A stretch of 62,386 nucleotides of DNA from Epibacterium ulvae (GTDB lineage: Bacteria > Pseudomonadota > Alphaproteobacteria > Rhodobacterales > Rhodobacteraceae): the NCBI RefSeq assembly GCF_018678075.1, contig NZ_JAHHIR010000040.1, positions 1-62,386 of the forward strand. Direction: 5' to 3'. Under the pieces are notes generated by a model. That model was not told the DNA's origin, ran no database searches, and was given only the letters and a program-made list of their open reading frames with translations. How positions within the stretch are numbered: position 1 is the stretch's first letter; each line of letters starts with the position of its first letter. The position numbers were made by a program, and so were the translations under genes. Positions 44,958-62,386 of the stretch are shown one piece after another.

Positions 44958-45137
44958 TCAAAATGGTCCTTCGCTTCAATCTGTGCAGGTGTTTACCATC
45001 ATAGACAACACTATGTGATTAACTGTAACAAGTTTCAATCACACACGAAAAAAATGTATCCTGCCAACGCTTTAGGAAAAGCGGATGCGCAAAAAGTGAC
45101 CTTAGAAATCAGCGTGTTTGGAACGGAAAAAGTAAGT

Positions 45138-45480
45138 GCAGGTTTCTGTTGCCAGGTACCTGCGAACCCCGCCTTACGCGGCTAGGCGCAAGGGCTTAAT
45201 TTCGGTTTTCCGAACTGCTTACGCAGCCAGGGCTACCGGAGCACGATTGTCATTTGCAATTGTACAAGTTTCGCCGATAACGGTGGCAGACAGCCGAAAC
45301 AAAGCTAACCCCTTTAGACGTCCGTCGATCCTATTTCGACCCCATGATCCCCAAATGAAGGATGTTTGGTGGAGTCGCCGGGTACCGCCCCCGGGTCCGA
45401 TCCGTTTATTACGAGCGCGTTTATGTTCATAGTTCCCGAAGGAACATTGCGAATATACGCCCGACGGGGCCGAAGTTAAA
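45138..45480 (-). ncRNA. ssrA: Transfer-messenger RNA, two-piece permuted form
   Basis: The gene is circularly permuted, as in alphaproteobacteria. On the minus strand the acceptor piece comes first (about 45480-45367) and ends GGCGACTCCACCA. A 23-base spacer follows, then the coding piece (45343-45138) starting GGGGTCG. GGGGTCG pairs with CGACTCC to make the 7-base acceptor stem with one G-U. The tag frame at 45257-45219 encodes ANDNRAPVALAA and a stop. tmRNA frees stalled ribosomes and tags proteins for ClpXP; its adaptor gene sspB is at 41666. Outer ends are estimated. Confidence 0.95.
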
Positions 45481-54790: not shown

Positions 54791-56485
54791 TCAAAGATAT
54801 ATCCGCCTCACGGAGAGGTGGCCGAGTGGTCGAAGGCGCACGCCTGGAAAGTGTGTAGGCGGGAGACCGTCTCCAGGGTTCGAATCCCTGTCTCTCCGCC
54901 ACTTACGAACAAAAGTGGGAACTGTGGAAGCGATTGCTTCGCCGCTCACTATGGCTCGCTCTAATTGTGACCAGCGACCCAGTATCGTAATTTGATCAAC
55001 ATCTACTTTGATCTCGTCAATGATCGCCCGAAGGAATCCCCGCTTTCCTGCTATTGATGGCTGCGCAAGGGCCTCTTGGATCCCGGAAACAAGCGCTGAG
55101 ACCTTTTGGTGGCTGACGCGAGCTTCAGGTGCGAGTTCAGCGGCAACCTGATCCCGTTCCTTTTGGGCGCGCAGGTGATGCTCCTTCGCTGACAGGAATC
55201 TTTGCTTGAAGTCTTCTTCGGCAAGGTCAACCAGCCCATGCCGGATCATGTCATATAAGGCGTCGAGGCTCTTCTTGGCCGCTTGTACTTCGGCGTCACG
55301 AGTTGCCAGCCGCTCCACTTGATCCCCTTCGGCTTTCTCTTGGCGTGTGCGCAATGGGTCGAGAAGTGCGTTCGCCTTCTCGGAGGTAAGCAGATCTGCT
55401 CGAACATGCTGAAGAACCAGCTCGTCAAGTGCGCCCATGGGTACACGGTGACCTTGGCAACCTGACTTACCCGTACGCATATGATTGGAACAGGAGTAGT
55501 AGCGATAGCGACCACCCTTTCCTGTTTGCGTGGTCATCCCATTGCCGCAATGCGGACACGTAACGAGACCCGTTAGTAGGACATCGCCGGTCACGACTCT
55601 CGGTGGGGTCTTCTTCGGGTTCCTGGCATCAAGGAAATCGCGCAACTGCAGGAATTCATCTTCGGAAACGATGGCCGGCACTCGGAGCGGGATTTCCACA
55701 CCTCCATTTTCTCCGCTGCGGAACGTAAACTCGCCAGTATATGTCAGATCGGTAAGGTGGCGATGAACACCGCTCACGCCCCATTTATTGCCTCTTCTCG
55801 TGCGATACCCTCTCTCATTGAGCCAGCATGCGATTGCCTTGATGCCCATGGGGCCGGAAGACCCGTCACCCTTGAGAGCAAGATCGAACATGCGACGCAC
55901 CACGCTTGCATCGCGTTCATCAAGCACCAAACCTTTTTTCCGGGTCTTTCCGCGCCGTTCGACTTCCACAACTTTGTACCCGAAGGGCGTGTTGCCGCCG
56001 TTCCAGAAACCCTGCAGGGCGTTTTCGTGGAGGCTGCGCCTGACATGTTTTGCTGTCTCCAGTGATTGATATTCATCGAAAATAGCCAGGATGCGCCGCA
56101 TCAAATTGCCTTCAGGGCTTTCATCGGTTTGCTGAGTCAGGCTGACCACACGAACACCTCGCTTGGCCAACGATCTGATGTAGAGTTCGCCGACGACCTG
56201 ATCCCGGAAAAAACGGCTATAGGAATGAACGACAATAAGTTCACACTCAAGTCCGCCATAAAGGATGGCATCGACCATGGCTTGAAAGCCTGGCCGCTTG
56301 TCGGTTGTGCCACTCTTGACGTCTTTGAACTCACCGACGATGCTGTAAGCGCTATGCTTGCAATATGCCTTGAGCTGTTTGCGCTGATCTGGAATGGAAA
56401 GATCTTTTTGGGCCTGCTTGCCTGTCGAAACTCTCAGATAAATAACGGCGCGGCTGCCTGGTGAGGCGACAAACTGCTTTTGCAC
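54791..56485 (-). CDS. Large serine recombinase 1, at the tRNA-Ser junction
   Basis: 564 residues. The catalytic resolvase domain starts [22 protein letters not shown], with the nucleophile serine in RVS and [11 protein letters not shown]. The recombinase domain ([19 protein letters not shown]) is followed by a zinc ribbon (CPHCGNGM...YSCSNH...GCQGH) and a coiled coil. GTG at 56485 after GGAAGG is the chosen start; the frame opens further up only with TTG. The last about 35 codons cross tRNA-Ser in antisense, so the natural end of the protein was probably near VPTFVRKWR and the readthrough arose from integration. Presumed integrase of the island. Confidence 0.85.
54812..54901 (+). tRNA. tRNA-Ser (GGA)
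   Basis: 90 nucleotides with the long variable arm of a class II tRNA. The acceptor stem GGAGAGG pairs with TCTCTCC, CCA is encoded, and the anticodon loop CTGGAAA gives GGA. The 3' half is the apparent integration target of the mobile island that follows: the first recombinase gene reads through this tRNA on the opposite strand. Confidence 0.96.
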
Positions 56486-56922
56486 GGTAATACCCTTCCA
56501 TGGAATCGCGTTCGAGGCGAAAAATGTGTGCTGGATCGGCTCCAACAATAGCCAGTGTACGAATCAAGGTTCAAGCGAATGTTCGCGTTTGTTCCCATTG
56601 AGCCCTTAGCGCTGGATGCATTTTCTTGGTGCATTTCAATTTGAACGCACCAAGAAAAAGCTCCAGGCTCAGTGCTCCAACGCGCGCGTGCGTTGGCCGA
56701 AATCACGAAATCCGAAGAGCAAAAATCTAAAAAAAACAGCTTGTTGTGGGGCTTGAATGGCTTGTAGCCTGAGGCCAACTAACTGGCGCACAACGGCGAT
56801 GCCAATGTGTCCATCTCTTGAGCAGGATTCTTCCTGCACTGGGGCCTGCCGATCGGTCGGTCTCATTAGTCAACAGCGAACCGGCTTCGGCTGGAACGCC
56901 AAAGCTATGGAGATGAGACACA
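56486..56922. promoter_or_regulatory. Divergent control region of recombinases 1 and 2, with inverted repeats
   Basis: No gene lies in this 437-base gap. A perfect 12-base inverted repeat, TTTTCTTGGTGC (56621-56632) and GCACCAAGAAAA (56647-56658), and a 7-base one, CCAACGC (56677-56683) and GCGTTGG (56690-56696), lie in the middle. Neither is followed by a T-run in the direction needed for a terminator. They may be recombinase or regulator binding sites. Confidence 0.5.
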
Positions 56923-57135
56923 ATGTCTGAATACACACATGATCTGCCGAAAGACGCGCTTTCGGCGGGCGCGAGGATACAGAAAAGCCGTTTCAGGGAA
57001 ACGTCCCGGTTTTTTGTCGTGAATGAACTCAAGTCGGTTCGGTTCGTGACAGAAGAGGAGATCCGTGCGCTCGAAACCTTTTACCAAAAGGATATGAGTG
57101 ATCTGCTGAATGACAAGAAGGGGGGGCGTAAATGA
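56923..57135 (+). CDS. Small protein coupled to recombinase 2
   Basis: 70 residues, charged, no membrane span (TSRFFVVNELKSVRFVTEEEIRALETFYQKDM). The stop overlaps the next ATG (ATGA), so it is translationally coupled to the recombinase. Small genes placed so are often recombination directionality factors or excision accessory proteins, which is an inference here. It is not recognised by sequence. Confidence 0.6.
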   Translation: MSEYTHDLPKDALSAGARIQKSRFRETSRFFVVNELKSVRFVTEEEIRALETFYQKDMSDLLNDKKGGRK

Positions 57136-58240
57136 GTCATCCCTTCGGCCAAGACTTCCCTGGTACCCAGCTTAACGCGATCCTTTACGCCAGAGTGTCA
57201 TCAGCCGAGCAGGCTAAATCGGATCTATCCATTCCTGATCAGATGGAGAGCATGCGAAAACACTGTCGACAGGCGGGGATCGCTGTCGCGCATGAATTCT
57301 CTGATGCCCGTTCTGGACGTTCATTGGACGGGCGTTCTCTGGGTGAGATATTGGACATAATCAAGTCCGGTACTGTGACGATCAATCTGCTGATTGTGCA
57401 TTCCTTCAGTCGTTTGGCGCGGGAATCCTACGAAGCTGAATGGCTTTGGAGAGAGCTGGAAAAACTCGGTGTGCAGATCGTCAGCATCACGCAGCCCATC
57501 GAAGATTCACCTACAGGTGGCCTGCTTCGCCAAATGATCAATGTGTTCGATGAGTATACATCGAACGAAATCGCCAAGCATGTCACGAGAACCATGAAGT
57601 TCAACGCCGAGCACGGCTTCTGGAATGGGGGTTTACCGCCCTTTGGCTACGTCGCGGCTGTCGCCGGTATGCGGGGGAAGAAGGTAAAGAAAAAACTGGC
57701 GGTAGACCCTAACGAAGCTGAGGACGTGCGGCTGATCTTCACATTATATCTCGACGGTGACGGCAAAACCGGCCCCATGGGCGTGAAGAAAGTAGCGCAA
57801 TGGATGAACTCTCATGGTCATTCTCGGAGAGGGAGGAACTGGACCACGGGTCAACTTCACCGGCTTCTGACCGATGCAGTATATGTAGGGGATTACCTCT
57901 TTGGGAAGAAGAAGCCAAAGGATTCACAGGTCATCGTGAAGGTGCCAGCGATTATAGATGCTCCTACCTTCGACAAGGTCCAGGCGCGACTGCGCGAACA
58001 CCATCCAATCCTTAAGGCCCCCCGACAAGTCAGTAGCCCGGTCCTGCTCACCGGCACAGCCCGCTGTGGCCACTGCGGGGGCGGCATGGTTTTGGCGACT
58101 GGAAAGAGTAACCGGTATCGATACTACACCTGCAGCAATCACAAGCGTAAAGGCAAATCTGTGTGCCAAGGGCAAAATGTACCGATGGAGGAGCTCGACA
58201 AAATCGTGACTGATACGCTGATCCTGGCACTCGATGATAC
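57132..58240 (+). pseudogene. Large serine recombinase 2, C-terminally truncated
   Basis: About 370 residues of real recombinase: the catalytic domain ILYARVSSAEQAKSDLSIPDQ, the recombinase domain ENAEHGFWNGG-type motif (FNAEHGFWNGGLPPFGYV), and a zinc ribbon (CGHCGGGM...YTCSNH...VCQGQ). It is a paralogue of recombinase 1. Similarity stops after LDKIVTDTLILALDDTERS; about 150 C-terminal residues with the coiled coil are missing. The frame stays open to 58670, but those residues come from the wrong frame of the next gene. The join with the GHKL gene at about 58240 marks a deletion or recombination. Confidence 0.82.
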
Positions 58241-60241
58241 CGAGCGAAGCCAAGCTGTGCTCTGCAGCCTGTATTTGAAGCTGTCAGCAATGGGATGCAC
58301 GCGATTTTCGATATCTGGGGAAAACAAGCCCATGAAAAGGGGCAAATCATTGTCGAGTTCAGCCAGACGAAGAATAGTAACGAGTACACAGTTACCGTGG
58401 CCGACAATGGTGTGGGCTTGGATGCCAAACGATTCCAGGCATTTTGTACGACCGACACCGATTATAAGATCGAGCGAGGTGGCAAGGGGGTTGGTCGACT
58501 TCTGTGGCTTGATGCCTTTTCGAATATCCATGTGGAGAGCATTTTCCGAGAGAATGAAAAGCTCTTCAAGAGATCCTTCGATTTCGGATTTGGTGGTGAG
58601 GATCCGATATACAACGAGAACTTGGTTGAAGTTTCTGGTGTGGCTGACACAGGTACGGTCGTTACTTTGAAGGGCTTGCGTAGCAACTCATATGCGACAT
58701 CAATGCCGCACCAGTATGCGGCCACAATCAAGCACTTCGGCTCACACTTTCTTGCCGACTTCCTCTTGGGGAAGGCTCCTGCGATGTCCGTTACATTCGA
58801 GGGAAAAACAGCTGAGTTCCCGGGCACGGTGGAAGATATGCTGGTTGAGAAACGACCGAGTGTAACGCTGGCGTCAGAGAAATTTGGTGAGCTGACGATT
58901 GATGGATACATCATGAAACCCGACGCAAGCGCTGATCTTGATGGTAGTCATCAGATGCATTTGGTTTCCTCTGGACGTACGGTTCAGACAAGAAAAATCG
59001 ATGGATTGATTGGGGTAAGAAGGGTGGGTGACGCTCACGATAGCGTTTTGCATGTCTGCGTTTCCGGCACTTTTCTTGATGAGCGTGTCAACCAGGAGAG
59101 AACTCAGTTCAACTTTTCCGAGAAGGTGGCCGAGGATCTGACTAAAGAGTGTGTCCAAAAGGCCAAGGAAGAAATTATCGAGCAAGAAGTTTCGAGCTAT
59201 GAGACATATCGGCTGGGCCAACTCGAAGATTTTGTCGACCACTATCCAAGTTTTGGATTTGAGGCCCCTCAAGCTCTACTCGGCAAAACACCAGTCAACG
59301 CTGACACGCATGAAGCGTTTGCTAAATCTCTGATACCACACAAAATTCGCGCTGATAAGAACCGCCGTGAACTTGTGCAATCCGTGTTGGACAAGCTGAC
59401 CTCAGATGATGAGGTGAAGCCCGATTTGGCCGAGGAGATTCGGCTTGCTGCGGAGGAGGCAACGCGAGATGAAAACCGGCAGCTCATGGAATATGTCCTT
59501 CGGCGGAAATTCATCATCGAGATCCTTCACGCTCTTTTGGGTAAGGTCAGAATTTTGAACGGAAAGTTTGAAACACACCTGGAGGACACATTTCATCAGT
59601 TGATTTGCCCAATGCGAGTGGTTGGAGGAGATCCTGCGAGGACGGAACCGGTCTCGCATGATCTTTGGTTGTTGGATGAACGACTTGCTCCGGCAAAATA
59701 CTTCGCTTCTGATGCTCAAATTAGAGATTTCATGGATGATGACGGAAAGGACCGCGTCGATCTCATGATCTGGGACAAAGTCCACGGACTCGGTTTGGGT
59801 TCGGAAGACCGGTTGGAGCGGGTCATGCTGGTGGAGTTCAAGAAACCAGAAAGATCTTCATACAAAGATGGCTATGTCATCGGTCGGCAGATGAACAAAT
59901 ACATGGGTCAGCTCAAAGAAGGAAAAATCCGCTCATACAACGGCGAACTAATCGAGCTTTCCAAGGATGTAGTCTTCCATTGCTATATCATTGCCGACCT
60001 CGTGGGGGACATAAAGACCGACACACAGGGATGGAATGACTCGCCAAGTGGGAGAGGCAAGTTCACCTATCTTGGTGGTGAATTCCGCGGGACAATGGAG
60101 GTCATTGAGTGGAAGGAACTCGTTAGAGATGCAAAGGTTCGAAATCAGAATTTCCTTGAAGCTGCGAGCCTTTCATTCGCCAACAAAGGAGATCCCATCT
60201 TTCCTAACCGAGAGAGTGCCGCCTCAGAAGCTGCTGAGTAA
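58241..60241 (+). pseudogene. GHKL ATPase fused to a PD-(D/E)XK-like nuclease domain, 5'-truncated
   Basis: The intact frame from ATG 58295 encodes 648 residues. Residues 37-41 are DNGVG and 62-67 GGKGVG, the G1 and G2 boxes of GHKL (Hsp90/MutL/MORC) ATPases. Just before the ATG the same frame reads FEAVSNG, the N box with its magnesium-binding asparagine; a stop lies at 58235, so the N-terminal start is lost. The C-terminus has VDLMIWD (near 488) and LVEFKKP (near 511-517), spaced like a PD-(D/E)XK nuclease active site. Such GHKL-nuclease pairs are known from restriction-like defence. Without the N box the protein is probably dead here. Confidence 0.72.
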
Positions 60242-60299
60242 ATCGAAGGTTCGCCCATCCATAAAATCCTGTGGAAACCTATGCACCAAGTGAAGATAG

Positions 60300-60583
60300 C
60301 TACCTTTTTCCGTTAGAACGACCATGGACCACCCACAAGAACGCCTTGTCGACTGCATTTGAGGCTTGCTTATGGTTTACGCCTGTTTTGGTTTTTACAA
60401 GTTCAACAATTTTGCTCCTGGGAAAGGTCTCCTCGTCTTTGCACTGGCCAGAGGCAAATGATTGCACAAGCTTCTCAGCCAACCGCCGCTGTGGCGAGAG
60501 AGAGTTCAGTCTCGGGTCGGACCAGCTGAAAGGCCCTTTAATAACAATGGTATACCAGTTCGCACTTTTATCCCATTCGGCCC
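60300..60583 (-). pseudogene. C-terminal fragment of an interrupted gene
   Basis: The frame reads EWDKSANWYTIVIKGPFSWS...QRRLAEKLVQSFASGQ...FPRSKIVELVKTKTGVNHKQAS...GKR. It is open from a stop at 60586 and has no start that fits: it begins directly at the end of recombinase 3, whose last codons overlap it in another frame. It looks like the 3' end of a gene cut by recombinase 3 integration. The lost part and function are unknown. Confidence 0.6.
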
Positions 60584-62061
60584 GCCATTATCTTACTTTG
60601 GCAAGAAAACCCCTCTAACATCTTGAATGGCAAGGTGGTTTTTGGTGTTCGAAGTCCTTCATTTCGCGCATAGGTAATTTGTTCTGCAAAGGCCAGTCTT
60701 AGGACGGTGCGTTGAGCGATCAGATTGCCACTTTTCCAGATTTTCCAAGGGTTTGACAGGAATTGCAGGGCGTGTTCGAACATTTGCTCGAAGGTGTGCA
60801 TTGGCTTTCCTTGGTTTTGCAGTTTTTCGTCTAAAATCAGCTTCTCACGCTCCATCTTTTCGATGCGCTTCTCGTAGGCGGTAATCAGGGTTGGGCTATC
60901 CGCGTCCACAACACGATCCAAGAGGCCTTCGATTTGCCTATCCAACCTGTTGCGCTCCGTGCGGATCAGGCGCTTGTCAGCCTCCATTTGTCCTGCACGT
61001 TGTCCCCAAGCGTCTTTGAACATCTTTGACGCCATGGCAAACATGCCCTCGGATGGTTTGAGGCTTTGCATCAATTCGTCAAACTCACCTTCGAGCACAT
61101 CACGACGGATCGATTTGCGATAGCTTGGGCATCCTTTGGCGTGGCAGAGGTAATACGGATGTTTCTTTCCCGATTTGCTGGTGGACCAGCAGGCCGTCAG
61201 AGGCGTGTTGCAATCATCGCAGCACACGAACCCCCGTAGAGGGAAATCCGCGTTGATATCCTTGCGAGCGGGCGCTCTGGCCCCGTCCTTGATCCGTTGT
61301 TGGATCAATTCATGGGTCTCCAATGAGATCAGACCTTCATGATGGCCTTTGCGAAGTGACACATCCCACTCAGGAATTTCGATGTAACCCGCAAAATGCG
61401 TGCGGGTCATCAGGCGGATAATCCGTTCAAAACGGATCGTACCATCGGCGAAGTCTTTCGGGAACGCAGGTTTGGATTCCAGAAACCGCTTCACTTCGGC
61501 CTGTGTTTCAAAATGCCCAAAGGCAAAGCCTTCCAAGGCCTCTTGGATGATGGACGCCAAAGGTTCATCCCGCACCAGCATATTGCCATGCCCCGCAACG
61601 CGCTCGTATTTATAGCCAATCGGCGCACGGAACACCCAATACCCATTAAGCGCACGCCCCCGCATACGGTTCTTCGTTTGCTCTCCGTTTTTCTGACGTT
61701 GGTGTTGGGACACAGATGCCAGCAGGTTCTCCACCAGAATGCTGTCACTGTCCTCGCCAAACTCAATTGATGGGCTTTCCAGCTTGCCACCCGCTTCGGC
61801 CAGCAGCGCGCGTAGTTGCCAATGCCCAACCACATCCCGTGCAAAGCGGTTGATGTCGTCGATGATGACAACGCAGGTTTCCTTTTGCGCTTTCAAATAC
61901 GCCAGCAGCGCAATCATGGCAGGACGATCCGCATCACCACCTGATTTGTTGTCATTGAAGACCTCAAGCACCTCATAGCCCTTATACCGCGCATATTCGC
62001 GACAACGGCTTTCTTGCGACGCCAGCCCGTCACCCTTCTTCAATTGAGCGACGCTCGAAAC
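60568..62061 (-). pseudogene. Large serine recombinase 3, N-terminus replaced by IS sequence
   Basis: About 498 recombinase residues: HVSSVAQLKKGDGLASQESR at the beginning, VVIIDDINRFARDVVGHWQLRALL, ESPSIEFGEDSDSILVENLLASVSQHQR, an FVCCDDCNTPLTACWS...CHAKGC zinc region and a C-terminal coiled coil. The strand leading to the catalytic serine, usually (A)YxR before VSS, is missing; unrelated residues from the neighbouring IS precede it, although the frame stays open to 62322. The catalytic serine itself remains. Loss of that strand and arginine should abolish activity. Confidence 0.8.
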
Positions 62062-62135
62062 ATGAGGTAATCGCGGCAGCGCTGATCGGATGGATGGTGC
62101 AAGCTGCGGGGATAGTAGCCTTGAAGGAGATACCC

Positions 62136-62386
62136 CTATCCTTCGGGCTCCGTGATGGGTATACCAAGAGTGGTGTACTGGTTGAGGACTGCAACACGGA
62201 TTTGGATCTCCGCGACCTGCCGGTCGAAGTCCCGCGCCATGAGGCCTTGGCCCATCAGCTTCAAGCAATGCATCTTCGTTTCGACGCGGCTTCTGCGGTG
62301 GTATCCGCTCCATCGCCTCCATAGCGCACGGCCCAGGTATCTCGAAGCATTGACCGCTTCGTTTCTGGCGATCGCGCCGGCGCTCG
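62136..62386 (-). mobile_element. IS5-family transposase, C-terminal part (continues beyond the window)
   Basis: On the minus strand the frame ends WRRWSGYHRRSRVETKMHCL followed by MGQGLMARDFDRQVAEIQIR and LGIPITEPEG plus stop at 62136. This is the conserved C-terminus of an IS5-group DDE transposase. The IS end lies between 62062 and 62135 and cut recombinase 3. The rest of the element lies beyond the window edge, or the assembly stops here. Confidence 0.85.

Follow-up and report, generated by a model that had tools for sequence, protein, structure and literature searches.

A 5′-truncated, probably inactive GHKL ATPase–nuclease gene on a tRNA-Ser element of Epibacterium ulvae

The window, the whole 62,386-nucleotide stretch of Epibacterium ulvae DNA analysed here, encodes a GHKL ATPase joined to a PD-(D/E)XK-like nuclease. 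The gene lies on a mobile element inserted at a transfer RNA (tRNA) gene for serine. Its open reading frame (ORF) spans position 58238 to a stop at 60239–60241 of the plus strand (667 codons). Relatives occur in genome contigs, plasmid records and viral-contig loci. Hence, the ORF is not a product of chance. The end of blastn identity and a three-way comparison place the start of native ATPase–nuclease sequence at about 58259; codons upstream within the frame are recombinase DNA. The gene thus occupies 58259–60241 and does not begin at 58241, as a preliminary description of this DNA had it. Four genome contigs (L011–L014) contain relatives 69–77% identical across nearly the whole length (tblastn). 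These full-length relatives start 23 codons earlier, with M-x-QLxGDV, and the start codon of L012 is TTG. Hence, the window copy is without its first ~23 residues and keeps 660 of ~683 codons. The truncation first suspected from the sequence is therefore real, and it coincides with a break in identity.

The remaining motifs are highly conserved in an alignment of 47 rows. The N box (58277–58291) provides E (58277–58279) and N (58289–58291), both kept in 46 rows; the last row is gapped there. The earliest in-frame ATG, at 58295, follows directly. The G1 and G2 boxes (58403–58495) read DNGVG (58403–58417) and then GGKGVG, with residues D49, G51, G53, G77 and G79 conserved in 47/47 rows. The transducer (S5) region (58976–59101), recognised by conservation and predicted fold, contains R240 (46/47 rows) and R281 (47/47). 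Both are candidates for the phosphate-contacting residue. The nuclease motifs (59582–59902) run E (59582), D (59759), E-x-K (59834–59842), Q (59888) and Y (59900). E, D, E and K are found in every row, Q and Y in 46. The distance from the N-box E to the nuclease K is 521 residues in the window and 501–558 in the 46 measurable rows. The preliminary description had placed the N box upstream of the only ATG, and had listed G1, G2 and a D/E-x-K pair about 25 residues apart. All are present in the sequence, with 25 residues between D (59759–59761) and the E of E-x-K. Its nuclease motif was right for D, E and K but omitted the first residue, E (59582–59584), which is present in 47/47 rows.

Conserved residues and predicted fold agree on the GHKL domain and its ATP-binding motifs. 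An S5 domain with a basic residue comes next. The C-terminal domain (59435–60238, plus strand), modelled alone, is predicted to be a Shedu-like PD-(D/E)XK nuclease. Structure model and conservation both identify a restriction-endonuclease fold with E-D-ExK, and profile comparison and the structure model make the domain homologous to the Shedu nuclease superfamily. Hence, the proposal of an ATPase and a nuclease on one chain holds, and the predicted C-terminal fold is indeed that of a nuclease. Standard annotation models recognised little of this protein. The Pfam cut-off for SduA_C (PF14082) was not reached by any of 23 members, one scoring E 0.15 and the others being unlisted at E 1. We therefore file the protein as paraMORC3-type with a Shedu-like nuclease. 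A Pfam scan of the protein query (P0001) gave HATPase_c alone, below cut-off (E 2.9e-5), and an NCBIfam scan gave weak ATPase matches. PADLOC models returned nothing convincing for the ATPase–nuclease, and the single PHROGs match, phrog_6203, is of unknown function. A PDB sequence search with P0001 found no match; with profile A1, matches were confined to the ATPase region. An SduA_C search of the genome itself found none, and the control was likewise undetected.

The break lies at 58259–58262, placed by the blastn end and the three-way comparison. Here, identity of the upstream gene, recombinase A, with a sister element in another species of the genus (G990) ends at 58262, and homology to the ATPase gene sets in at about 58259. 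Recombinase A has lost ~147 residues at its C terminus and the ATPase ~23 at its N terminus. The simplest reading is that one deletion fused the two genes. Inspection of the junction revealed no conspicuous repeat; a few bases are common to both sides and do not prove a mechanism. Two genes broken at a single point, in a draft assembly of 107 contigs of which the window is one entire contig, could instead betray a misassembly hiding a recombinase gene and an ATPase gene that are both whole. However, the stretch 57900–58700 matches its own genome once, at itself, the overlap at the break amounts to those few bases only, and the element borders are clean on both sides. We regard misassembly as very improbable.

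Improbable too, if a little less so, is a living gene. Translation could start before the N box at a codon other than ATG, or a shift of frame could link the gene to recombinase A, and a chimeric or slightly shortened protein would still work. The 660 codons are stop-free and every motif is intact. Divergence from L012 is of purifying type (pN 0.16; pS 0.88, saturated), and the larger part of it probably predates the break. However, from the stop at 58235 to the ATG at 58295 the frame offers neither ATG nor GTG nor TTG, a CTG at 58262 being the one candidate; starting at the ATG would drop the N-box E and N; and recombinase A and the ATPase are read in different phases. We conclude that the window copy is probably inactive.

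The insertion target is a tRNA-Ser (GGA) gene at 54812–54901 (plus strand), identified by ARAGORN and by empty-site comparison. Its last six bases, CCGCCA (54896–54901), recur at 60582–60587 and bound an insert of ~5.7 kb (54902–60587). In three genomes of the same genus (G980, G991 and G981), the tRNA-Ser 3′ end abuts sequence matching the window from 60588 onward (blast); the tRNA-side match in G981 is 33 bases only. CCGCCA stands at both borders in the window and once per fetched 801 bases in those genomes. The insert is thus flanked by copies of the tRNA 3′ end and absent from relatives, as in tRNA-targeting integrative elements. The gene therefore rides on a tRNA-Ser island, as first supposed.

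The element contains, in order, recombinase B, a 70-amino-acid ORF, recombinase A, the ATPase–nuclease gene and a small right-end frame. Recombinase B (54791–56548, minus strand) is a large serine recombinase with Pfam Resolvase, Recombinase and Zn_ribbon_recom matches. Its frame leaves the element through the tRNA-Ser gene, so that the target and its flank contribute the final 37 codons, including the stop (54791–54901, minus strand). The 70-amino-acid ORF (56923–57135, plus strand) overlaps the start of recombinase A and has no Pfam match. Recombinase A (57132–58262, plus strand), also a large serine recombinase and 43% identical to recombinase B, keeps 377 codons without its 3′ end; its frame continues to 58670 through foreign DNA. 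Among five other recombinase loci, tRNA-Ser lay near the recombinase in L083, L084 and L086 and tRNA-Arg in L081; L082 had neither. The small right-end frame (60300–60587, minus strand) has a homologue in G990 (46% identity over 83 amino acids). The right border cuts this conserved frame, and the G990 homologue is ~45 residues longer on the border side. A third serine recombinase lies at 60568–62320 (minus strand), its 5′ end apparently broken near 62100, where transposase-like sequence occupies the end of the contig. Since matching DNA follows tRNA-Ser without a gap in the empty-site genomes, this gene seems older than the insert.

The sister element shows what else the recombinases can accompany. 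In G990, window positions 54811–58262 are present at 96% identity, at a different tRNA-Ser (TGA), and recombinase A is full length (524 amino acids). Downstream of it are type I HsdM, HsdS and an HsdR-like protein, plus PDC-S32- and PDC-S14-like genes; the homologue of the right-end frame is situated after this restriction–modification (R-M) cargo. Hence, two genomes share this recombinase pair, with unrelated defence cargos behind it. A 60-bp match at 60528–60587 was tried as a shared right end and rejected. The small frame of G990 runs beyond the point equivalent to 60587, so the neighbourhood is shared and the border is not. We tentatively propose, with rather less than even confidence, a compact family of defence ferries. 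These would comprise two divergent serine recombinases targeting tRNA-Ser 3′ ends, with an exchangeable slot behind recombinase A. An intact ATPase–nuclease cargo would act as a MutL-like ATP clamp, responding to DNA topology or DNA ends by licensing a Shedu nuclease. If true, a single chain would unite the worlds of MORC and Shedu.

The family is sparse and often mobile. Counting the genome studied here, 8/248 genomes were positive at family level (E 1e-20), 7/385 at class level (E 1e-5) and 11/398 at phylum level (profile, E 1e-10). Matches occurred in 53 of 72,556 plasmid records, in 50 of which at least 80% of the query aligned in one place. One of 50,697 phage records matched, with the gene adjoining an integrase gene, and profile search recovered 48 loci on viral contigs. 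Hosts among the loci read included Alpha-, Beta- and Gammaproteobacteria, Bacteroidota, Actinomycetota and Nitrospirota. With a Vibrio relative as query, blastn found no match in E. coli genomes. The phage member in L025 (2485–4509) is named N-acetylmuramoyl-L-alanine amidase, an annotation that looks wrong. Another member (L039, 9881–11923) lies, on our own reading, inside a same-strand run of phage structural-type genes.

This distribution bears on function. A MutL- or gyrase-like role in DNA repair or topology, in place of defence, deserves hardly any credence. Presence is patchy at both family and phylum level, the carriers are plasmids, viral contigs and an island, the nuclease is Shedu-like, and R-M genes stand behind the same recombinases elsewhere. 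The plasmid records, viral-contig loci and integrase-linked phage gene would fit a different role. The protein could guard its carrier element against rival plasmids or prophages (superinfection exclusion) and not the cell against lytic phages. This is compatible with our preferred reading of a defence protein. As a replacement for it, we consider it unlikely. The Vibrio cholerae protein VcSduA, of the same build, is reported to protect against T1-like phages and vibriophage X29 (PMC12137116).

Neighbouring genes were consistent with defence. DruA lies 1.5 kb from L013, followed by DruD and DruE (Druantia), and PtuA and PtuB (Septu) lie 2.8 kb from L012. On our own reading, L014 follows apparent phage tail genes and a DNA methylase at what seems a prophage end, and L011 is flanked by genes resembling housekeeping genes. 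The expectation that intact relatives with a complete N box would sit beside phage-defence genes was thus borne out for two of the four, L013 and L012. Contexts were not housekeeping only.

On plasmids, we read 19 loci, drawn from 53 records in one search and 60 in another. A strict defence annotation was present within ~8 kb in 9/19 (L018–L023, L028, L031 and L129) and absent from L016, L017, L024, L026, L027, L029, L030 and L130–L132. L019 and L020 have one common neighbourhood, and L029 has almost no downstream flank, the record ending there. The controls were equal-sized stretches on the far side of ten of these plasmids; one was moved so that it lay within its record. There, 1/10 had such an annotation (Fisher p 0.098 against 9/19). 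For the ten paired plasmids, the counts were 6/10 at the gene and 1/10 on the far side (Fisher p 0.057). Scoring was by eye, not blind, from an incomplete gene table. The strict list comprised restriction, DNA methylase, Shedu, SAVED/CBASS, Abi, TIR, ABC-3C and SIR2. VapBC-type pairs, patatin, kinase/phosphatase, HNH, HEPN and unnamed AAA genes were left uncounted at target loci. Among the controls, L137 scored through an orphan cytosine methylase pair; the caspase-family protein of L134 and the PemK/MazF toxin of L140 did not count. The enrichment is supportive, not proof.

We conclude, with a probability of roughly 0.84, that the window carries a 5′-truncated, probably inactive paraMORC3-type defence protein (GHKL, S5 and Shedu-like PD-(D/E)XK nuclease), the cargo of a 5.7-kb serine-recombinase element in a tRNA-Ser 3′ end, and that intact members most likely work as ATP-driven nuclease clamps. 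What was established directly is the domain make-up, the conservation of catalytic residues, the truncation, the borders of the element and the presence of type I R-M genes behind the same recombinases in another species. Intact members would most likely dimerise through the ATPase. ATP binding may then shut the N-terminal clamp around invading DNA, and closure could license the C-terminal nuclease to cut it. Phage would thereby be restricted directly. Clamp closure, target choice and the activity of this branch are inferred. With these findings, a little-studied class of ATP-driven immune nucleases reaches plasmids, prophages and islands in no fewer than four bacterial phyla. Intact relatives (~683 amino acids, complete motifs) offer a set for testing GHKL control over a Shedu-like nuclease. 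The small tRNA-Ser element shows that one recombinase pair has carried, in a single slot, defence systems unrelated to each other in two species of the genus. Elsewhere in the window, a transfer-messenger RNA gene (45128–45462, minus strand; flagged tmRNA*) encodes the tag peptide ANDNRAPVALAA.

Several known systems resemble the window family. Shedu SduA structures (8ps4, 8ps5, 8ti8 and 8ti9) have the same nuclease fold, and the SduA_C motif order agrees by profile; they are set apart by their titles, none of which names a GHKL ATPase. Two loci, L105 and L106, encode GHKL and a Shedu nuclease (SduA_C) on one chain, as the window family does. However, their E-to-K spacing is 477–478, ~44 shorter than the 521 of the window, and the A2 profile gives no match. 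We therefore rejected them as members and treat them as a second GHKL–SduA_C lineage. Among the papers that our literature searches on GHKL or HATPase proteins in phage defence, Shedu and paraMORC3 brought up, the sole functional study of such a protein that we recognised is PMC12137116. VcSduA (Shedu type I-D) has an N-terminal GHKL domain and a C-terminal PD-(D/E)XK nuclease and was shown in 2025 to block phages. Protection was lost with E27A (ATPase) and K557A (nuclease), and growth curves fit direct restriction. Compared by position numbers alone, E27 and K557 have the same residue numbers in 2/47 rows (L052 and L056). Their spacing of 530 is inside the family range, in contrast to the L105/L106 lineage. 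The paper terms the nuclease DUF4263, whereas members here fail the Pfam SduA_C model. A search by way of near relatives did not lead to VcSduA itself. We infer kinship between the two. ParaMORC3, described in 2008 by Iyer, Abhiman and Aravind, has the GHKL conserved motifs (PMC2292703), S5 and a C-terminal restriction-endonuclease fold with E-D-ExK. It too is partly standalone and patchy in proteobacteria and Bacteroidetes. The window copy differs in being without its start, and the likeness is one of described features. The preliminary description had foreseen intact relatives forming a poorly described anti-phage system. Intact relatives do exist, but since paraMORC3 and VcSduA precede it, the system is not new. 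Its kind is already known, and what is added here is a branch, its carriers and the exchange of cargo.
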